Shown piece after piece: positions 796 to 13,841 of a stretch of DNA of 22,415 nucleotides. Below the pieces are notes generated by a model. It worked only from the letters and a program-made list of their open reading frames with translations. It ran no database searches and was not told the DNA's origin. Origin of the DNA: a virus; IMG/VR virus record IMGVR_UViG_3300031976_000544, positions 1 through 22,415 of that record; one strand, given 5' to 3'. The position numbers and the translations under genes are program-made. The number at the start of each line of letters is the position of its first letter. Positions within the stretch are counted from its first letter, which is position 1.

Positions 796-1236
796 TTATG
801 ATGGTTCAGTTGGCCAAGTAATGTCGTCAGGGTCAGATTCAGATGCAGGCAAATCTCTGAGAGCTTGACGATACGTTTTCCAAGCACTGCTCATTGTAAC
901 ATCACTCATTCCACGCCAGTCTGACGCTTCAAGTTTAGCATCACGGGCCGCTCTAATAGATGCCCAATGTTCTGAATCAGTTTGGTCAACAGCAGTATGA
1001 GTTAATGTAACCGTCTGTTTATCTTTGTCTATAGTAGTAGTTGTATCCCCACGTTTCTTTCCAGAAGTGACTTCTTGTGTAACTTCAGTAGCTTTAACCA
1101 AAACGTAATCACCTAAATCTAAAGGTCTTTGATCACCTGTATATACAATATCCATCGTATCTGGTATTTTAACTCGACCTACAGAACTGCCTAATCTGGT
1201 AGCTGTTCCATCTGATTTTTTAAGTAAATAATCCAT
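796..1236 (-). CDS. Small protein with tail-assembly-chaperone-like C-terminus (copy 2)
   Basis: This 146-residue protein starts MDYLLKKSDGTATRLGSS. The frame is open for 61 codons further upstream, but that extension lies inside the neighbouring gene, is Leu/His-rich and lacks phage-like features. AAGGA at 1244-1248, seven bases before the chosen ATG, supports the shorter start. The C-terminal half (WASIRAARDAKLEASDW, then SSAWKTYRQALRDLP and DDITWP) matches what I know of the Phage_tail_APC type domain, found in small proteins encoded next to tail-fibre genes and thought to help fibre assembly. The last 36 residues match those of the protein at 3601-4023 at 35 positions, while the N-terminal parts differ. 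It follows the 240-residue fibre-like gene. A folding or attachment role for that fibre is inferred. Confidence 0.75.
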   Translation of the reverse strand: MDYLLKKSDGTATRLGSSVGRVKIPDTMDIVYTGDQRPLDLGDYVLVKATEVTQEVTSGKKRGDTTTTIDKDKQTVTLTHTAVDQTDSEHWASIRAARDAKLEASDWRGMSDVTMSSAWKTYRQALRDLPASESDPDDITWPTEPS

Positions 1237-1252
1237 GTGTTTTTCCTTATTA

Positions 1253-1975
1253 TTATGAGGGCCCAAAGACAAGAAATGCGGATGATCTAAGTGCTGTTCC
1301 ATCGTATAAAACACTAACAACCTGTCCAGCAGAAGCAGAAGCAAAAGTTGCATCTGCACAACCAGTTTGTGTACCCGCACCTGTCTCACTTCCGGCATCG
1401 GGGCCAAGTCCAACATCAATTCTTTCAGTTAAATTTGTAAAAGTTAAGGTTTCACGTTCTTCACCATCCGCAAGAATACTTAGACCTATAACAGCCTGTC
1501 CTGCTTCTATATCAAATGTTGCTGAATGGGTAAGACTACCAGACCCAGCAGTGTTTGTTGTAACTGAGCTACTTTTAAAAATTAAGTCTGTTCCCTCCCA
1601 AACATATATTCCACCTCGTTTTGTAGTCCTTTGATATGTAGGAATAATATCTTTAGTTGTTCCTGATGCAATTTCATATCGAAAAACTGCTATTTGTGAA
1701 TGGTCTGTTCCTAAATTTTCAAAAACTTTAGTGCCAGCAACACCACCGCAAGTCATCCCAGAAAGACCATCAGTGCCAGCACCTCCACCTGTTGTCACTG
1801 CAGCAACAAGAATAATACGAGAAGCACCCTCATTACTTCCTACACTAACATTACTGTAAGTTGTTGATGTGTAGTCTTCAAGTGTACTACCAGAGGAACC
1901 ACTAGCCGTAAATCCTACAAAATTAAGCACTGAAGCAGCTGCGGATGCTGGAGCAAATACAGGAAATAAACTCAT
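1253..1975 (-). CDS. Putative tail fibre or adhesin component, 240 aa
   Basis: A beta-rich, Gly/Ser/Thr-rich protein with no predicted signal peptide or membrane segment. It begins MSLFPVFAPASAAASVLNF. The central pattern (ASRIILVAAVT, a Cys-Gly-Gly turn, FRYEIASGTTKDIIP, then RGGIYVWEG) resembles an uncharacterised beta-sandwich found in many phage tail proteins. Its start overlaps the stop of the upstream 190-residue gene by four bases (ATGA) and no good ribosome binding site is visible, so translation is probably coupled to that gene and the two may act in one fibre. A chaperone-like gene follows 16 bases downstream. Receptor binding is inferred from location and composition only. Confidence 0.65.
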   Translation of the reverse strand: MSLFPVFAPASAAASVLNFVGFTASGSSGSTLEDYTSTTYSNVSVGSNEGASRIILVAAVTTGGGAGTDGLSGMTCGGVAGTKVFENLGTDHSQIAVFRYEIASGTTKDIIPTYQRTTKRGGIYVWEGTDLIFKSSSVTTNTAGSGSLTHSATFDIEAGQAVIGLSILADGEERETLTFTNLTERIDVGLGPDAGSETGAGTQTGCADATFASASAGQVVSVLYDGTALRSSAFLVFGPS

Positions 1976-3600: not shown

Positions 3601-4023
3601 TCATGACGGTTCATCCGGCCAAGTAATATCATCTGGATCAGATTCAGATGCTGGTAAATCTCTTAGAGCTTGTCTGTAAGTTTTCCAAGCACTGCTCATT
3701 GTAACATCTGAGTTACTCATGTAATCTGATTCAGCAAGTTTAGTATTACGTTGACTTCTAATAGATGCCCATTTAGCAGATAGGTCTGTACTATTTACAA
3801 GTGATTGCTGTAAAGTTGCCTTTCCATCAGCCACTTTCCAGAACATAGGTGTCCTCCAAGCCTCTAGTCCGTCAGCAACTTTATCTTCTAGATAGAAAGC
3901 GTTTTCATCACCATCAGAAACACAAGCGGCTACACAAGCTTTGGCTTCATCTTCAGTGTCAGCCACATTAATTCTATCGGGTATACCGTCATCATCCCAA
4001 TGTGATATAATTGAATACGTCAT
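3601..4023 (-). CDS. Small protein with tail-assembly-chaperone-like C-terminus (copy 1)
   Basis: This 140-residue protein starts MTYSIISHWDDDGIPDRINV with AGGAG about nine bases upstream. Residues about 85-140 (WASIRSQRNTKLAESDY, SSAWKTYRQALRDLP, DDITWPDEPS) form the same Phage_tail_APC-like domain as in the protein at 796-1236, with 35 of the last 36 residues shared. The N-terminal 80 residues are different (Cys-containing, acidic, with FYLEDKVADGLEAW) and may set fibre specificity. It lies 9 bases after the 339-residue fibre gene. Assistance in folding or mounting that fibre is inferred, since these domains are known mainly from gene neighbourhood. Confidence 0.75.
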   Translation of the reverse strand: MTYSIISHWDDDGIPDRINVADTEDEAKACVAACVSDGDENAFYLEDKVADGLEAWRTPMFWKVADGKATLQQSLVNSTDLSAKWASIRSQRNTKLAESDYMSNSDVTMSSAWKTYRQALRDLPASESDPDDITWPDEPS

Positions 4024-5460: not shown

Positions 5461-6471
5461 TTATCCCAAAGCAATTGCAAGTGCTGTTGCTTCTCCACTA
5501 GTTAATGTAACTATTCTTGATAGTGCAGCTTTTCTATTTGTTCCACCAGCGCCATCGTCTACTATAATTAAATCTGTAGTTGCTAAATCTGCACCAATGT
5601 CTGTTCCACCATCAATATCTAAATCTACAAGTGCGATAGAACCATCAGGAAATACAGGTGCTTGTGAGAATGTCACAACACCATTGGCTGCAATTGCAAT
5701 CGAGTCTGCATCAGAAGCAGAACCTATCTGTCCATCATCTGCAACAGTGATACCACTACTATGAACATCTCTCTGACTAAAAGTTACTGCACCAGCAGCT
5801 GCAATCGTTATAGCATCTGCATCAGTAGAAGTTCCTATGGTTCCTCCGTCTTTAATGACAATGTCATCTACAAAAGTAACAATACCAGTAGATGCAATAC
5901 TGATGGCAGAAGTAGAACTTGTAACACCGATTGTTGCGGCATCTTTTAAAATTAGGTCATCGACTAAAGTGACAATACCTGTAGAAGCGATGGTGATTGC
6001 AGAGGTTGAACTGGCAACACCAATTGTGCCACCATCTTTAATTAGAATATCATCTACAAAAGTAACGATACCTGTGGAGGCAATCTGCATTGCAGCCGTA
6101 GAACTAGCAGAACCAATATTACCGTCATCAGGAACAATCACACCACCGTCAGCAGAAAGTGTGATAGTAGTAGCAGAAATTGCACCGTTGAATATTGCTT
6201 TACCAGCATCACTCATATCAAGAGTAAGTGCAGTTATATCAGAACTACCATCTGTTCCCTTAAAGATGATATCTGTGTCACCAGCCTGTGCGTCAATTGT
6301 GATGTTACCAGTTGACGTAGCAATCGTAACGGCTGCATCACCAATAGATATATCATCTGCTGCGGTTGTACCACTCGCAACACCATCAACGTCCTGTACA
6401 AGTTTATTAAACTCTACACGAAACTCTTCTAGGCTTTTATCTGGTGTAATTGCACTTGATGTAATTGCCAT
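5461..6471 (-). CDS. Repeat-containing tail fibre or structural protein, 336 aa
   Basis: The N-terminus (MAITSSAITPDKSLEEFRVE, then FNKLVQDVDG) is helical and resembles the leader of marine phage structural proteins. Residues about 115-276 hold four to five copies of a repeat with core DGGTIGxxSSTxAIxIAST and GIVTFVDDILIK. The first three steps are exactly 31 residues apart (Gly120, 151, 182, 213) and the last is 37. Such regular beta units suggest a beta-helix or beta-prism shaft. The C-terminus (LIIVDDGAGGTNRKAALSRI) is a motif seen near the ends of phage fibre proteins. The start codon overlaps the upstream stop by one base (TAATG). It has no recognised enzyme motif. The next gene is behind its own promoters, so expression may be separately tuned. 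Confidence 0.75.
   Translation of the reverse strand: MAITSSAITPDKSLEEFRVEFNKLVQDVDGVASGTTAADDISIGDAAVTIATSTGNITIDAQAGDTDIIFKGTDGSSDITALTLDMSDAGKAIFNGAISATTITLSADGGVIVPDDGNIGSASSTAAMQIASTGIVTFVDDILIKDGGTIGVASSTSAITIASTGIVTLVDDLILKDAATIGVTSSTSAISIASTGIVTFVDDIVIKDGGTIGTSTDADAITIAAAGAVTFSQRDVHSSGITVADDGQIGSASDADSIAIAANGVVTFSQAPVFPDGSIALVDLDIDGGTDIGADLATTDLIIVDDGAGGTNRKAALSRIVTLTSGEATALAIALG
5644..6129 (-). repeat. In-frame 93-bp tandem repeats encoding a 31-residue beta unit
   Basis: Successive units in the 336-residue protein begin at residues 115, 146, 177 and 208, with a degenerate fifth at 245. The IASTGIVTFVDDI segment is nearly identical in the first three. The DNA repeats too, with catctacaaaagtaac recurring on the plus strand near 5867 and 6053. 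The last two units drift in sequence, with AAAGAVTFSQ and AANGVVTFSQ replacing ASTGIVTFVD. Confidence 0.85.
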
Positions 6472-6702: not shown

Positions 6703-8556
6703 TTATGTCACCAACGCTATCGCTCTAAGTTCTTTAATTCTTGGTGGTTCTGCACTGTTTGTTCCCTGCATAACAATCTTAATTTGAAATGATATAAACT
6801 CATCTAAAGGATCACCAATACCATCGTCTGTAACACCAGCAGTGTAAATATACTCTTGGAAATCATCTACATCAGCTGATGCTGGTGTATCGTTATCATC
6901 AACACCAGTTGTGTTAAAGAATGTGTATCCAAGATCATCAAAATCAGTTGCATCATCTGTTCTTAAAATCTTAAACATAAGTTTAATTTCAGATGTTGAA
7001 GGTCTATGTGCAGAAAGTAATACTTTGATAGCTGTAGCAGGATTTTCAAGAGTTACTTTCTTTGTAAGATAAATTGCTGCGTTGTTATCTCCCTCTGGTT
7101 CAGTAGAAGCAACGAAATCGGTTGTAGGAAAAACATCAGAAGAAGAATCTATGTTATCTATCATATTTTGAACCGCAACAAAAGAGCAACGTGTTAAATC
7201 AATAACAGGAGATAAGTTTTGATTTGAAGATGATAATGTAATCGGCATCTCAAAAGATTTTGCACCGCTCATCTCATTTGTTTCATTAATTTGTGAAGCA
7301 ATCATTTGAGGTGTTTCAAACTTAATATTTTCATTTAGATCATATCCTACAGCATTTGATAAAGTACTTTTAATAAATGATGTTTGACTTCCACTTCGAC
7401 TTGTAGCGGTAGTTGATTGTATTTTTGCAGAAAGTTTAGCATTTGGAAATTCTAGTTTTCCAATCAAAGACTTACCAGCATCCATTGCATTATTTTCTGA
7501 AACCACCACTGCACCACCACCATTTTCAGCTAAACCAGTTCCAGAAATTACAGGAGTAGTGCTTAATGTAACAGTATAAGATTCCATACCTATATTAGAA
7601 ATACTGGTGTGTGTTTTATTAACTTCCGTCAAAGGAACTTTATGTATTTGATAAAGTTCTACAGTTGCTCCGTCAGCATGAGTTGCAGCAGTTGTACCGT
7701 CTTGTCCTCTAGTAATGACAGATACAGAATTTTCACTTATAGTAGTATACTTCATAATTTCATCATCAATTTTTATAAAATATTCACTCGCAGCTGTGAT
7801 TGAAAACTTACCAGAAGTATCATCAAAGTTAGTTCCACTCGTAAGAGTTAATGTTGTGGCAGTGGCAGTTATAGCACCATTCAGCGTTGTAGATGCACCA
7901 GATTTAGCACCTGATATAGTTACATTATTATTCGTAGAATACATTCCATGTGGCAAAAATGTATTAACTTTCAATTCTGTATTTCCATTTGTAAAAGTAA
8001 GAGGGTTAGATGGCAATTGTTTATTAAGAACTGCATTATTTTGTAAAGTAACTGTTCCATCAGTTCCAGTGGTGAACTTAGCTGCTTTAATTGTAAATTT
8101 CAAATCTTCTGTAGGGGATTCAGCCCAAGTAGAATTATTAGAAGATTTAAAAAGAACACCAGCATGAGGTTGTGTTGAAATATTTCTACTTCCACCAATT
8201 TCTTGATCTCCAAGATTAGTTATCCATATTTTATAATCTGGTAAATGTGTTTTAACTACAAGAGCATATTCTGTATTTTCTTGCACGTACACAGGAGAGT
8301 CAAAAGTAAATGTTGTTGATGTAGCAGCAGTTAAATCTACATTAACACTGCTTGAATGAAGTGTTAGTCTACTAAATGGTAAAACTTTTCTGCCGGGATA
8401 ACCATTTATCATATTTCTAATTTCTATAGTAATTGGTAATGACTCATGTTTAGCAGCAAAATATAAATCTACCGAAGTAATAAATCTTCCTCCAGCAAAA
8501 TCTACATCTTCAGATTGTATTGAAAAACTTTGTGCTAATGGCTGCCCCTGTCTCAT
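6703..8556 (-). CDS. Virion structural protein, split-off C-terminal part of a DUF4815-type protein, 617 aa
   Basis: The protein starts MRQGQPLAQSFSIQSEDV. The first 160 residues (PLAQSF, FITSVDLYFAAKHESLPITI, ENTEYALVVKTHLPDYKIWI) match a module that, in marine T4-like phages as I remember them, follows directly after the DUF4815 region within one giant polypeptide. The middle (residues about 210-320) is beta-rich with SGAKSGAS and TATATTLTLTSGTNF segments. The C-terminal part (SFVAVQNMIDNI, AAIYLTKKVTLENPATAIKV, LLSAHRPSTSEIKLMFKIL) is also typical of that family. Here it has its own ATG, overlapping the upstream stop by four bases (ATGA), with AGGA about eight bases before it, so translation is probably coupled. 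A baseplate-to-fibre connector role is inferred from position between genes 8 and the fibres. Confidence 0.8.
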   Translation of the reverse strand: MRQGQPLAQSFSIQSEDVDFAGGRFITSVDLYFAAKHESLPITIEIRNMINGYPGRKVLPFSRLTLHSSSVNVDLTAATSTTFTFDSPVYVQENTEYALVVKTHLPDYKIWITNLGDQEIGGSRNISTQPHAGVLFKSSNNSTWAESPTEDLKFTIKAAKFTTGTDGTVTLQNNAVLNKQLPSNPLTFTNGNTELKVNTFLPHGMYSTNNNVTISGAKSGASTTLNGAITATATTLTLTSGTNFDDTSGKFSITAASEYFIKIDDEIMKYTTISENSVSVITRGQDGTTAATHADGATVELYQIHKVPLTEVNKTHTSISNIGMESYTVTLSTTPVISGTGLAENGGGAVVVSENNAMDAGKSLIGKLEFPNAKLSAKIQSTTATSRSGSQTSFIKSTLSNAVGYDLNENIKFETPQMIASQINETNEMSGAKSFEMPITLSSSNQNLSPVIDLTRCSFVAVQNMIDNIDSSSDVFPTTDFVASTEPEGDNNAAIYLTKKVTLENPATAIKVLLSAHRPSTSEIKLMFKILRTDDATDFDDLGYTFFNTTGVDDNDTPASADVDDFQEYIYTAGVTDDGIGDPLDEFISFQIKIVMQGTNSAEPPRIKELRAIALVT

Positions 8557-11500
8557 TGTTTTATTCCTATAACATCCAATTCTTTAGGCAGTTGATCTGC
8601 TATTTTGTCTGATTCCATTTCCTTAATAAAATTACTTAAAGCTATTTGCATGGTTGGATAAGGACTTTTCCCTGCTAAGTTATATCCTAATGCTCTCCTA
8701 CCTCGTACAGTTCGATATCCATCGACTGTGTATGTTGCAGTTTCTTTGACATCAAAGTTAAAGACAAATTGTTTTTGAAGTAAATAAACTATTGAGTTAA
8801 TTGTAACTATATCACCAGTGTCAGAAAGTAATGTATCACCAACTACAAGATCACTTACAGAACTCCAGTTACCATCTCCAGTAACCATTATCTCTGTATG
8901 CGACACTCCAAGTATACCATTAATTCTAACAACATTAACATAATCGACTGCGACTTCGCAAACTGTGCCAGATGTAAGAGGCCCATCAAGTTCTTCAAAA
9001 TTGGCAACTTTATCTCCAACTTCTATAAACTCAATAGGTTTGGTAGACCCATCGGCCATTGCGATAAGAGAACCAGCAACAAAGCAACCGCCGCCACTAT
9101 CACTACCACTATCATCACCGCCGGGATCGCCTGAAGCAGTATCCCCAGGGGCCCCAAAAGCACTTGAACTAAAAGAAAATGAGGTATCATCTACGCCAAC
9201 ACCAACACCAATATCTACACCAAACTGATCCCCTGCAAAGCTTGCCGCATAGGTATCATTAGCAGGATCACCGCCGGCATCTTGAGATATTCTTCTACCA
9301 CCAAAATAACCTCTATATCTTCTTGCATATGTTACTTCATTTATATCTTCTGCTACAATTATAGCATTTTTTGTAGCAATAATGGTTTCTTGAGAAGTTT
9401 CAAGAAGACCATTAGCATGATAAATAGTTTGTGCAGCAGTTATTGGGTCACGATCAAGTCTATTTACAGGACTTGAAGTAATTCTAAATTGTATTTCTCC
9501 AGCTGGAAATTGTGGATTACCAAATTGTTTTGGATTAGGAATTGAAAAAGTCCCAAGTGCTGAACCAACAGAATTTGTAATTAATTGACTTCCTTTTATT
9601 GGTGTTGTATCTGTACTATACGTAGAGTTTAATGGTGTTACAAAAGAACTGACATTAAATCCACCAAAAAATACATATACTTTAGTATTTGGTTTTAATT
9701 GACTGGCTTCAAATACTATATCTCTTACCCTACAATAAGGAACTAATCCTCTTGATATAACTTTACTACCTTGTGATTCTCTATCAATTTGAGCAAGAAC
9801 TGCTGATGAAATTGTTGTTTGCCCAGAACTAGTACGATACGTTTCTACAGCTCTTACTACTTCTCCACTTTGATCTTTTACAAAATCTCCATCGGTTTCA
9901 GAAACACCAGACCATTGAGATTCCCAACTATTCCAAATAGTTCCTATTTGATTTTTTACAGCACTAACAACCGCATCGAAATTACCATCCACATTAACTA
10001 TAACTTCTGGAGCAACAGCAGTCTCAAACCACTCATCACTATCTGGTTTTAAATGTAAATCGCCTATCCAAGAAAATGTATGAAAAGTTGCAACTCTTTC
10101 TATAGTTGAAGCATAAGGTTGTTCTACAATTGTTTCTTCTGTATAAGGAAGAGTTAATAAACTTCCTGTTCTCTGATATCCAGCTGATGTTCTTTCGCTG
10201 GTACTAGTGGCATTTTCTGACAATCTAGTAGCGTTCATGTGATGTTGAGGACGTAATTCATTATTTTCCATATCAATGGAGTTTTTATAATCTTTATGAA
10301 CAGTGTCACCTATACGATGACCATCAAAATTATCAACTACAAATCCAGCTTTAAATCTGTTTAATCCGTTAACATCTGTTGTCTCAAAAGACTCTGCATC
10401 TCTTTCTAGCATATTAAGAGCTGTATAATATTCAACATGATCAAGTCTTGATTCTATTTTACCAATATCTTTCATGGTAAATCTTTGATATCTTTTTCTT
10501 GCTACAATAACTTTTCTTGGATCAGGAGTATATGCTGGAAGAAAAACATCAAATAATCTCATTCCAATATCTGGAACTGTAGGTAAGCTAGGATTTTCGG
10601 ATGAAACTCCTTCATGCACAGTAATCTCTCCATTTTCGCCTAAATGAATACTAGTCATTTTTGGAAGAAAATATTCAAAATCACTTTGAACCAAAGAACC
10701 TGGCTTTGGAAAATCTGCTGTAGACGATCCTGTCCCACTAAATACCCTACTATTAAAATTAAAAGAATTTCCAGTTATTTCATCAACAACAGAAAGTGTA
10801 TCTGATGTTCCAGTAATATTTGCAACTCTAGGTCTGAAATCATAAGTATCTTGAAGTGGAAACAGACCTGTAGGTTTTTGTGAATCTGGATCAACTTTTG
10901 TTGCAGCATACTGTGGTATATCATCATACGTCATTCGTAATGCAACGTCTGTATATGAGTCTACAGTCATCAAGTCTCCCGACCCATGTTCCATGTAATC
11001 GTAAACTATTAATAGTCTACCAGTTGGTGTAGATGAACCAGCTTTTATTACAATTCGAGCAATATCATAAAAATTATCTCTCATTCCTGTATCAAGAGCA
11101 TATCTATTTGTAATTGCTATACTTCCATCCGTAACTTCTGAAATAGTTGCAGTCGCACCAGAAGACGAACCAGTAATTGTGTCAGAAGTTGTAAAGTCTG
11201 TTGGAGTTAAAGCTACATAACTCATAGGAGAAGTTGTATCAATTACTCTTCCTGTTGCTTTAGTGACTGACCCTGTAATTTTCTCGCCTCTTGTAAATGT
11301 TCCACTAATGTCTGTTAAAGTTAAACTAGGAGCAGTTGCATCTGAACTAGTGCTTTCAGAATCAAAGACTGCAACGAGATTAAATACATCAGCCCTACCA
11401 AGAGAAATTGTTTTATCAGTAGGTCTAGTACCAAACGCATCAGTTGCACCAGTTGAAACTTTAACTTGTTTCATAAGATTAACAGTTTTATTTTTCTGTA

Positions 11501-13841
11501 TGACTGAAGTTTTAAGAATTGTTGCAGTTAATTTAACCTTTGCAGAATCACCTAAAATAGTAGCATCAGTTATAGTTAATGAACCACTACCAGTGCCAGA
11601 AACTTTACCAGATATACTTACAATATCACCTTGAGCTCCTGTACCATCTCCTGCTGTAAGGATAGACATTGTATAATCTCTTTCTGAATGACCAAGAAAA
11701 GCTTCATTAGTACCAGCATTAAATGTTACTACACCAGAACCATTTGTCGTTCCTACAAACTGTCTCCTAACAGTATATTGTGTATCAGTTGCACCATCGT
11801 TAGTCGCAGTTAAGAGTGTTTTAATAACCTTCTTTGGAAGTTTATATAAAGATATATTTTTTTCTGTTTCTTTTAATTTTGCAGCCTCAGTAACAAATCC
11901 CTCTTGAATAAGTAAACCACCTGTTGTTTCTAACTCAATCCCACCTGTTCCATTTTCAAGTGAGATATCAGCAAATACGTTTGTTAATTGTTCAGTAACA
12001 AAATCAGCAGTAAAGTCTTGACCAGAATCATCATCGTCCATAAAGACTTGTCTAAAGTCAACAAAACTAAATGTTTCAATTTTTGAAATTGTAATATCAA
12101 CATTACCAGAGGTTTCTATAATACCTCCTGTTTCTGCTGAATCAGAAGCTGTAACCTTTTCACCAGAACTAAACGTACCAACAACATTTGTTAAATTAAC
12201 ACTTGTTGTTGATGTTCCATCTTTAAATACAAAACCAGTTGCACCAGAAGTAACACCTTTAATTTGAACACCACCATTTGCATGACTTGCTAAAAGAGTA
12301 GGACTAGGAGTACCACTCAAAGTTAATTTTGTAAATGGTTGTAAGTCAAACATAAACAATTTATATTGTGAATCAAAATTTGTCGCACTTGCTCCAGCAG
12401 TTCCAGAATGAAATTCTATTGCACGAGCTTTTCCTACACCAATTAAATTTCCATTGGCCGCACCTCTAGTTGTATTAAAAGCATCGTAGAACTCTATTTT
12501 TTTAAACGTAGTAGTTTCACCAGTAACAAATGTTATATCAGGAGTTCCGTATACATTTGTAATAAAAGCAAAATTACCTACATCAAAAGATGTAACACCA
12601 GCATTAACAGTTTCAAAATCCCTTGCTTTTTTTACATCTTTAACGGTATGTGCAAGTTTTTCAACTTCATATCCTTTAATATATGCTTTGCCTGGAGTAA
12701 TACGAAAAGCTAATAAATCTGAACTTGGAGTATTACCATCATCCGTTAAACTTCCAGTTGTCAAGGAACGATTTTGATAAATGCCATTATAGTTTAAAGA
12801 ATCATTGTCAAGACACTCTCTTACTTCAGTTTGAAAAGGACGAACTGTATAATCACCAGATTCTTCTGCTGTTCTTCGAGCTAAAGCTTCTTCTAAAATA
12901 GAATACTCTGTATTTCTAACAAGACTCTGAATAACTCCCTCTTTAACATCCATCAATTCTACAAAATTAGAATCTGCTGTAGAAGACCTTGTAAGTTTTG
13001 ATAATGCTAATGAGATTTTAAGTCTGTGAGCACCCTTTGCAGCAAAGTTGTTTGAACCAGTAGCATTATCAAGTAAAGTTGTATCTGACTCTGGAGTAAG
13101 AAGTGTTTCTGTTACAGTAAACCCAACACGATTAGAAGGATTAGTGGTATAAGGGTCTAGTACTAAAGTCTCTTCAGAGCAAGTAACAAAATGTCCTCTT
13201 ACATAATAAACACCAGAATCAATTTTTACAGCAGACCCTATTCTTGCTGCTGGGCCTGTCGCACTTGAAAGGTTAGCAACTGTGTCTGTCGCAGTTTGAC
13301 CCTCTACAGTTGCTTTAAATGAAGAGGTAAATGTTGTGGCAGACGCTACTCCAGAAGAATAACTTGAAGTATGAGTTATACCAGCATTTGCAGAAATATT
13401 TTCTCCATCTGCAAAAACTGTAGTTACGTTATCCGTTCCTGTTTTAACATAATCGATATGAAGAAGTGCTTGGTCTGTTGACGTTGCCGCAGTAAATCCA
13501 ATAACTTGAGCAGTAACACCAGTAGTAGCTCCAGTGATTGTAACAGGAGTTGTTGAATTAAAATATTGAGATGGATCAATTTGTTCTGATGCAAAACTAG
13601 ATGCAAGTTTTAATGTAAAAAAATTATTATTAAAAGACAACTGGCCAGGCACAACCATTGCACCTTCTTTGAAAATATGACTTCCATGTTTTTCAATTTG
13701 ATTTTGAAGAACAGATTGTAATTGTGTTAACTCTCTAGCTTGTATTGCAAAGCCAGGACGAAATAATGTTCGTTTAAAATTGTCTGTCTCATCAAAATCA
13801 TCATAATAAGGAGAAACATTTAAATCAGTTTTTTGTGCCAC
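8553..13841 (-). CDS. Giant DUF4815-type baseplate/tail structural protein with C-terminal Hint domain, 1762 aa
   Basis: The start is GTG, with GGAG about ten bases upstream, two bases after the gp8 stop. Residues 10-65 (SPYYDDFDETDNFKRTLFRPG, minus the last residue, ARELTQLQ, KHGSHIFKEGAMVVPG) are the hallmark N-terminus of DUF4815. Residues 209-230 (SGVYYVRGHFVTC) continue it. Several beta modules with TSGATG turns follow, then the conserved DDIPQYAATK, DFRPRVANITG, and MKDIGKIESRLDHVEYYTAL with GLNRFKAGFVVDNFDGH. After YARRYRGYFGGRR comes a Gly/Asp/Ser-rich linker and a Hint domain from Cys1586, then a 50-residue tail. Marine phage homologues are large structural proteins in the tail. Position after gene 8 fits T4 genes 9-11. 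Whether the Hint domain cleaves the chain is unknown. Confidence 0.85.
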   Translation of the reverse strand: MAQKTDLNVSPYYDDFDETDNFKRTLFRPGFAIQARELTQLQSVLQNQIEKHGSHIFKEGAMVVPGQLSFNNNFFTLKLASSFASEQIDPSQYFNSTTPVTITGATTGVTAQVIGFTAATSTDQALLHIDYVKTGTDNVTTVFADGENISANAGITHTSSYSSGVASATTFTSSFKATVEGQTATDTVANLSSATGPAARIGSAVKIDSGVYYVRGHFVTCSEETLVLDPYTTNPSNRVGFTVTETLLTPESDTTLLDNATGSNNFAAKGAHRLKISLALSKLTRSSTADSNFVELMDVKEGVIQSLVRNTEYSILEEALARRTAEESGDYTVRPFQTEVRECLDNDSLNYNGIYQNRSLTTGSLTDDGNTPSSDLLAFRITPGKAYIKGYEVEKLAHTVKDVKKARDFETVNAGVTSFDVGNFAFITNVYGTPDITFVTGETTTFKKIEFYDAFNTTRGAANGNLIGVGKARAIEFHSGTAGASATNFDSQYKLFMFDLQPFTKLTLSGTPSPTLLASHANGGVQIKGVTSGATGFVFKDGTSTTSVNLTNVVGTFSSGEKVTASDSAETGGIIETSGNVDITISKIETFSFVDFRQVFMDDDDSGQDFTADFVTEQLTNVFADISLENGTGGIELETTGGLLIQEGFVTEAAKLKETEKNISLYKLPKKVIKTLLTATNDGATDTQYTVRRQFVGTTNGSGVVTFNAGTNEAFLGHSERDYTMSILTAGDGTGAQGDIVSISGKVSGTGSGSLTITDATILGDSAKVKLTATILKTSVIQKNKTVNLMKQVKVSTGATDAFGTRPTDKTISLGRADVFNLVAVFDSESTSSDATAPSLTLTDISGTFTRGEKITGSVTKATGRVIDTTSPMSYVALTPTDFTTSDTITGSSSGATATISEVTDGSIAITNRYALDTGMRDNFYDIARIVIKAGSSTPTGRLLIVYDYMEHGSGDLMTVDSYTDVALRMTYDDIPQYAATKVDPDSQKPTGLFPLQDTYDFRPRVANITGTSDTLSVVDEITGNSFNFNSRVFSGTGSSTADFPKPGSLVQSDFEYFLPKMTSIHLGENGEITVHEGVSSENPSLPTVPDIGMRLFDVFLPAYTPDPRKVIVARKRYQRFTMKDIGKIESRLDHVEYYTALNMLERDAESFETTDVNGLNRFKAGFVVDNFDGHRIGDTVHKDYKNSIDMENNELRPQHHMNATRLSENATSTSERTSAGYQRTGSLLTLPYTEETIVEQPYASTIERVATFHTFSWIGDLHLKPDSDEWFETAVAPEVIVNVDGNFDAVVSAVKNQIGTIWNSWESQWSGVSETDGDFVKDQSGEVVRAVETYRTSSGQTTISSAVLAQIDRESQGSKVISRGLVPYCRVRDIVFEASQLKPNTKVYVFFGGFNVSSFVTPLNSTYSTDTTPIKGSQLITNSVGSALGTFSIPNPKQFGNPQFPAGEIQFRITSSPVNRLDRDPITAAQTIYHANGLLETSQETIIATKNAIIVAEDINEVTYARRYRGYFGGRRISQDAGGDPANDTYAASFAGDQFGVDIGVGVGVDDTSFSFSSSAFGAPGDTASGDPGGDDSGSDSGGGCFVAGSLIAMADGSTKPIEFIEVGDKVANFEELDGPLTSGTVCEVAVDYVNVVRINGILGVSHTEIMVTGDGNWSSVSDLVVGDTLLSDTGDIVTINSIVYLLQKQFVFNFDVKETATYTVDGYRTVRGRRALGYNLAGKSPYPTMQIALSNFIKEMESDKIADQLPKELDVIGIKQ
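8706..9086 (-). other. Hint (intein/hedgehog-like) domain, residues 1586-1712 of the DUF4815 protein
   Basis: The segment opens with Cys1586 in CFVAGSLIAMADGSTKPIEF, followed by IEVGDKVANF: the standard Hint N-terminal block, with Cys as first residue and an ADG turn. A block-B-like region (LGVSHTEIMVTGDGNW) has a His at residue 1648 but Gly, not Thr, three places before it. SDLVVGDTLL follows. The C-terminal block (FNFDVKETATYTVDGYRTV) is clear, yet the next residues are Arg-Gly (1713-1714) where splicing inteins have His-Asn. N-terminal thioester chemistry could remain, while Asn cyclisation could not occur. There is no homing endonuclease. The linker before Cys1586 is very flexible (SGDPGGDDSGSDSGGG). 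Confidence 0.85.

Follow-up and report, generated by a model that had tools for sequence, protein, structure and literature searches.

Hint domains are familiar from inteins, hedgehog proteins and secreted bacterial proteins, and a TxxH motif in their block B is usual in the superfamily, albeit not strictly universal. In bacterial intein-like (BIL) domains, cleavage predominates over splicing (PMC7664689); the A-type has a conserved C-terminal His-Asn, and in the B-type the intein motifs are present with the C-terminal motif alone missing (PMC7765530). Here we analyzed a viral DNA of 22,415 nucleotides (IMG/VR record IMGVR_UViG_3300031976_000544, positions 1 to 22,415; hereafter the window), in which a BIL/Hint variant occupies an unexpected, recurrent place, namely the end of the 1762-residue product of the open reading frame (ORF) 8553-13841(-), which has a GTG start. 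According to its profile matches, this ORF encodes one half, the first, of a baseplate protein (VrlC/DUF4815) that is split in this marine phage; its C-part is encoded by the next gene. We propose, at about an even chance, that the Hint is a repeatedly acquired BIL-type self-processing cassette whose N-terminal cleavage separates the body from the C-part, the two being assembled non-covalently. The chain would be cut before Cys1586 by an N-S acyl shift followed by thioester hydrolysis or the attack of a small nucleophile, in a present or past role, and the resulting body, about 1585 residues long and free at its C-terminus, would associate non-covalently with the separately made C-part.

Host protein and Hint domain

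The body matches DUF4815 (Pfam, E=2.5e-58), and phrog_358 is spread over two adjacent genes with its order kept, positions 1-1428 corresponding to the body and 1655-2055 to the next gene (6703-8556). The surrounding cluster is of the baseplate type (gp25-gp6-gp7-like-gp8-VrlC). Methylophilales phage Melnitz, the Pelagibacter phages HTVC008M and Mosig, and Prochlorococcus phage P-SSM7 (Kyanoviridae) share the homologous body and C-part and the gene order after gp8, but their VrlC is a single polypeptide with a short junction and without a Hint. The VriC protein of Ackermannviridae has been suggested to form baseplate prongs (PMC11721090), and many matches to Salmonella phages suggest that VrlC and VriC are homologous. 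The homology of the fused relatives reaches QETIIATKNA at about residue 1494 of the window protein, and the linker that follows has a GC content of 47% (9087-9340) versus 35% in the body. The features of the locus are:

9360..13841 (-): VrlC/DUF4815 body, residues 1-1494 (DUF4815; phrog_358 1-1428; 44% identity to Melnitz; junction alignment)
9087..9359 (-): Gly/Asp/Ser-rich linker of 91 residues, 1495-1585, unlike the junction of the fused relatives
8619..9095 (-): mobile cassette, beginning on its 5' side with the Gly codons directly ahead of Cys1 (86% DNA identity to contig L002, see below)
8703..9086 (-): Hint domain, residues 1586-1713 (PT-HINT; AlphaFold2 model and PDB matches)
9084..9086 (-): Cys1586, Hint residue 1, putative nucleophile of the N-S acyl shift (invariant column C8; structural superposition)
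8892..8903 (-): block B, S1647-H1648-T1649-E1650, with Glu in the place of the block-B His (MAFFT alignment; A-type alignment to a profile hidden Markov model, HMM)
8700..8708 (-): C-terminal block V1712-R1713-G1714, where His-Asn-(+1) belongs (superposition; HMM alignment)
8556..8702 (-): C-terminal tail of 49 residues, 1714-1762, with a helix at 1729-1749 predicted at low confidence (AlphaFold2); SPYPTMQIALSNFIKE is identical in L002
8565-8568 (-): AGGA, a ribosome-binding-like site 8 bases ahead of the C-part ATG (sequence)
8553..8556 (-): ATGA stop/start overlap of the body-plus-Hint gene and the C-part gene (sequence)
6703..8556 (-): VrlC C-part in its own gene, start MRQGQPLAQSF (phrog_358 1655-2055; same ORF as the body in Melnitz, HTVC008M, Mosig and P-SSM7)

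Pfam PT-HINT covers residues 1593-1711 with a score above the gathering cut-off (E=5.4e-10 in the genome search), and our own Hint HMM recognizes the domain at E=9e-28. The AlphaFold2 model, for which an alignment of 43 phage Hints served as input, has a predicted local distance difference test score above 90 between Cys1586 and about residue 1711. Its PDB neighbours, as determined by Foldseek and VIA-align, are BIL domains, inteins (mini-inteins) and hedgehog; the closest folds are the A-type BILs (Z 19-20), i.e., Tetrahymena BIL2 (6y75; Z 19.9, root-mean-square deviation 1.8 over 134) and the Clostridium thermocellum BIL (2lwy; Z 19.2), and hedgehog Hog (1at0) scores Z 17.5. The domain is thus a real member of the Hint superfamily, its model showing the horseshoe-shaped two-fold beta fold whose N-terminus is formed by residue 1. 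Both the Hint fold and the likeness to BIL-type domains, which a first-pass annotation had claimed from the sequence, were borne out by this structural comparison, one of the checks that it had proposed. The annotation had missed the altered block B, the approximately 49 residues after the domain, and the fact that the downstream gene encodes the remaining half of this protein.

The leading Cys1586, which the annotation had called intact, lies in one of five invariant columns (C8) of the 43-Hint alignment and coincides, in the superposed structures, with intein residue 1 and with hedgehog Cys258. At the opposite end the superposition stops at model residue 135, i.e., Arg1713, which faces the terminal Asn of inteins (e.g., Asn440 of Mtu RecA), and the block TYTVDGYRTV aligns with TYIADGYVVHN of A-type BILs; the latter end in the conserved His-Asn and the window Hint in Val-Arg. 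Neither a terminal Asn/Gln with penultimate His nor a +1 Cys/Ser/Thr is present, and the sequence reads Val-Arg-Gly. The previously noticed absence of His-Asn is hence confirmed, but the register differs by one residue, since the pair is replaced by Val1712-Arg1713 with Gly1714 at +1 and not by Arg-Gly. Because His-Asn is missing, normal splicing of the window Hint is not expected, in agreement with the earlier view. The domain shares fold and Cys1 with class 1 mini-inteins (gp41-1, Mtu RecA, Ssp DnaB) but differs from them by the lack of a terminal Asn, of a +1 nucleophile and of a C-extein in the same chain.

The motif pattern is that of B-type BILs with respect to the presence of Cys1 and block A and the absence of His-Asn, but block B is altered. 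The block-B His column is nearly invariant, and only three of the 206 non-redundant phage Hints collected in the present analysis lack the His: the window, L002 (contig IMGVR_UViG_3300046103_001477) and L051. Window and L002 have Glu instead, in the context S-H-T-E in place of TxxH (MAFFT; the A-type HMM alignment agrees), and they are the only ones to combine it with a missing His-Asn. The replacement of the block-B His by Glu therefore places the first chemical step in doubt too and not just the last one. The earlier statement that the N-S acyl shift could still form a thioester is weakened, because it presupposed that the first half of the active site was intact. His1648 is located two residues before the aligned His column, which may reflect a shifted active site. 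Scans of IMG/VR with the C-terminal block plus tail and with the VSHTEIM block recovered L002 alone, thus indicating that this Hint subtype is rare in that database.

With B-type BILs the window Hint has in common the fold, the leading Cys, the lack of a C-terminal His-Asn and the location in a variable region of a surface- or virion-type protein; it differs in the additional loss of the block-B His, the replacement of Asn/His by Arg/Val, and its organization as a mobile C-terminal cassette with a 49-residue tail in a baseplate protein. Hedgehog Hog likewise has a C-terminal Hint followed by a tail, and as in Hog the N-terminal part of the window protein could be released or transferred. In contrast to Hog, the window protein seems to have no sterol-recognition region of comparable size, only about 49 residues with a low-confidence helix; the block-B His is absent, and sequence identity is 14%.

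A C-terminal cassette shared with L002

The closest Hint is that of L002, with 86% DNA identity across 480 bp from the Gly codons before Cys1 through FIKE. It terminates a 453-residue virion protein without detected homology to VrlC, which stops just past the same tail, and the phage has a different tail gene set. With its closest counterpart thus located at the end of a virion protein that is unrelated and belongs to another phage, the cassette is mobile. The comparison indicates that the domain travels as a C-terminal cassette between unrelated virion genes, that it has done so recently, and that it is kept under selection. The ratio of non-synonymous to synonymous substitution rates (dN/dS) between window and L002 is about 0.27-0.32. 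Cys1 and block A (CFVAGSLIAMADGST) exhibit zero amino-acid changes, SHTEIMVTGDGNW and SPYPTMQIALSNFIKE are identical at the protein level with silent DNA changes, and block B likewise contains silent changes only. The host protein of L002 has no relative among cultured phages, and a tblastn search of the window Hint against cultured phages retrieved no Hints but distant ones from Vibrio phages, located in other proteins. A scan of the genome contigs yielded distant Hints only.

Hints in related phages

Alignments of A-type and B-type Hints were used for scanning, followed by HMMs for Hint, VrlC body and C-part; for the C-part, two smaller alignments took the place of one of eight sequences, which were too diverse. 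The scans revealed 34 distinct VrlC proteins with one to four tandem Hints between body and C-part, at the same junction as in the window (in three of them the contig or stretch ends before the C-part is reached). Without exception, the last Hint of the 17 fused representatives ends with HN and has K/R as the next residue; a start of the DPLAQ(T/S)F type comes immediately thereafter or at most about 16 residues on. About a dozen Hint-bearing VrlC proteins are split, i.e., their ORF terminates behind the last Hint, and the next ORF begins with the C-part; the apparent splits of L260 and L266 look like frameshifts inside a Hint and were left out of this count. In comparison, the nearest 160 VrlC loci retrieved by the C-part contain no Hint, and 159 of them are fused. 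After removal of near-duplicates, fission was found in 11 of 28 Hint-bearing versus 1 of 78 Hint-free VrlC proteins (Fisher p 8e-7, uncorrected for descent).

In the tree of C-parts the window is nested within fused VrlC proteins that lack a Hint (sets of 3 and 8 rows are supported), which is indicative of a recent origin of both Hint and fission in its lineage. Hint presence requires at least 10 changes on the C-part tree and the VrlC label at least 15 on the Hint tree (11 forced by supported branches); these counts are approximate, because some of the "other" hosts may be undetected VrlC relatives. The repeated changes on both trees suggest that Hints enter or leave the VrlC junction repeatedly. 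In the open-access literature we found no description of Hints in VrlC/DUF4815, which is not proof of absence.

Among 121 A-type phage Hints the +1 residue after the terminal His-Asn is Lys in 88 and Arg in 8 cases. This lysine is kept even as the last residue of the protein (VHNK and stop; e.g., L264, L250, L030), and it could provide an amine as acceptor or the new N-terminus of a product. Tandem arrays comprise seven Hints in a tail-fibre-like protein (L255:1571-7084) and four in a VrlC (L250:2014-11079), with neighbours joined as HNK|CF. In the tail-fibre-like proteins of L258 and L265, Hints are located upstream of an apparent C-terminal intramolecular chaperone (RLKxxIELIxTRxDGLKIYxFxYVWSD).

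Other phages harbor C-terminal B-type Hints with an FxDY block where HN stands in the A-type. A gene for a protein of 150 residues is situated downstream of such Hint genes at 98 of 127 loci, and either this gene or a PF05118 hydroxylase at 101 of 127, compared with none of 264 control loci (A-type Hints only, or Hint-free VrlC). The 150-residue family (phrog_17252, no Pfam match) has a GNAT fold in its predicted structure (Ard1, RimI; Z 16). Examples are L035:6422-6889, L016:6442-6906 and L017:3660-4091; overall, the gene follows, directly or at a short distance, Hint genes of about ten unrelated host proteins. The aspartyl/asparaginyl beta-hydroxylase (PF05118) directly follows the B-type Hint gene at 31 loci (e.g., L036:6416-7090, L332:7916-8590), the GNAT gene usually being located further on. 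In L034 and L035, Hint and GNAT gene are situated between VrlC body and C-part. Both have GAHNKNSG|CFLPG directly ahead of the B-type Hint, where HNK resembles a scar left by an A-type Hint that has been lost; their relative L335 carries A-type and B-type Hints in tandem. Window and L002 possess neither an FxDY-type C-terminal block nor a downstream GNAT gene. No description of the Hint-GNAT pair in phages was found in the open-access literature, which does not prove its absence.

Elsewhere in the window, ORFs 796-1419(-) and 3601-4023(-) have nearly identical C-termini (MSSAWKTYRQALRDLPASESDPDDITWP-EPS), which suggests a duplicated module among fibre genes, and ORF 5461-6471(-) is fibre-like with repeat units such as DDI-IKDGGTIG-ASSTSAITIASTGIVTFVDD and has no family match.

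Cleavage, transfer or decay

The coexistence of fused, tandem and split forms at one junction is most simply explained if Hints separate body and C-part. Fused relatives would reach the two-chain state if the chain were cut on either side of the Hint, at Cys1 and at His-Asn; in the window the C-part is already a separate chain, so that His-Asn would be dispensable and N-terminal cleavage alone would remain. Splicing is disfavoured because it needs a +1 nucleophile, yet +1 is mostly K/R in A-type Hints, and the association of Hints with fission is easier to reconcile with separation. Ligation as the purpose is disfavoured as well, because gene fission should then be harmful. Several observations weigh against cleavage. 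Besides the block-B His, the block-F His-like residue is also missing in the window Hint, and the acyl shift may hence be crippled. L177 (2-3952 and 3995-6493) is split at the window's junction without any Hint, thus documenting that fission does not need one, and the independent tree pairs of Hint versus fission, although of the same direction, are too few to reach significance. Moreover, the purifying selection on the cassette could reflect a structural role. In view of the odd block B, it is a real possibility that the window copy is slow, triggered or has lost its activity; it may be capable of weak or triggered cleavage, of transfer to an acceptor, or be a decayed structural domain.

The last option, a catalytically decayed Hint retained as a mobile C-terminal domain for folding, display or spacing without autoprocessing, is one we take seriously without favouring it. 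The combination of Glu in block B and absent His-Asn, otherwise seen in L002 alone, and the strongly Gly/Asp/Ser-rich linker are consistent with decay; a decaying domain would not be expected to retain Cys1 and block A without an amino-acid change, to show an overall dN/dS of about 0.3 and no variation in the altered block B itself, or to have moved recently and stayed intact. Covalent attachment of the body is unlikely. In such a hedgehog/BIL-like transfer a partner, e.g., the VrlC C-part, a different subunit of the baseplate or a molecule of the host surface, would attack the Gly1585-Cys1586 thioester with an amine or hydroxyl. Established Hint chemistry would permit it, the conserved tail (SPYPTMQIALSNFIKE) could recognize the adduct or partner, and B-type Hints of other phages own a dedicated GNAT partner gene. 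Conversely, the window lacks this gene, the tail is short with a low-confidence helix, and fused and split forms alternate among relatives without sign of a fixed acceptor. The attachment to a baseplate or fibre partner that the first-pass annotation had envisaged therefore gained no support, as nothing points to an acceptor and the junction pattern favours separation over ligation. It is quite unlikely, too, that a rewired subtype (Cys1, Ser-His-Thr-Glu, Val-Arg) forms a thioester and attaches the baseplate protein elsewhere, with the conserved tail choosing the acceptor in a hedgehog-like virion ligation. The placement of the Hint exactly between two halves of one ancestral protein recalls a degenerate or split intein that trans-splices body to C-part, but this is highly improbable given that the Hint is complete within the first gene and lacks a terminal Asn, the second gene starts with MRQGQPLAQSF without a C-intein piece, and +1 in the fused relatives is K/R instead of C/S/T. 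An assembly or frameshift artefact in a truly fused gene, for which L260 and L266 might serve as precedents, is hardly credible: in the window, Hint and tail are complete before the stop is reached, the C-part is provided with an ATG, an AGGA site and an ATGA overlap, and the L002 protein ends likewise just past the same tail.

Hints thus represent an exchangeable module that recurs, in one to four tandem copies and linked to gene fission, at a single fixed junction within a conserved baseplate protein. This suggests that self-cleaving modules serve phages to finish or divide VrlC. The fused, tandem and split relatives provide a ready comparative series and compact candidates for protein-cleavage tools. 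If the Hints cleave, the tail assembly of these marine phages would include an autocatalytic maturation of a baseplate subunit that has been overlooked by sequence annotation.
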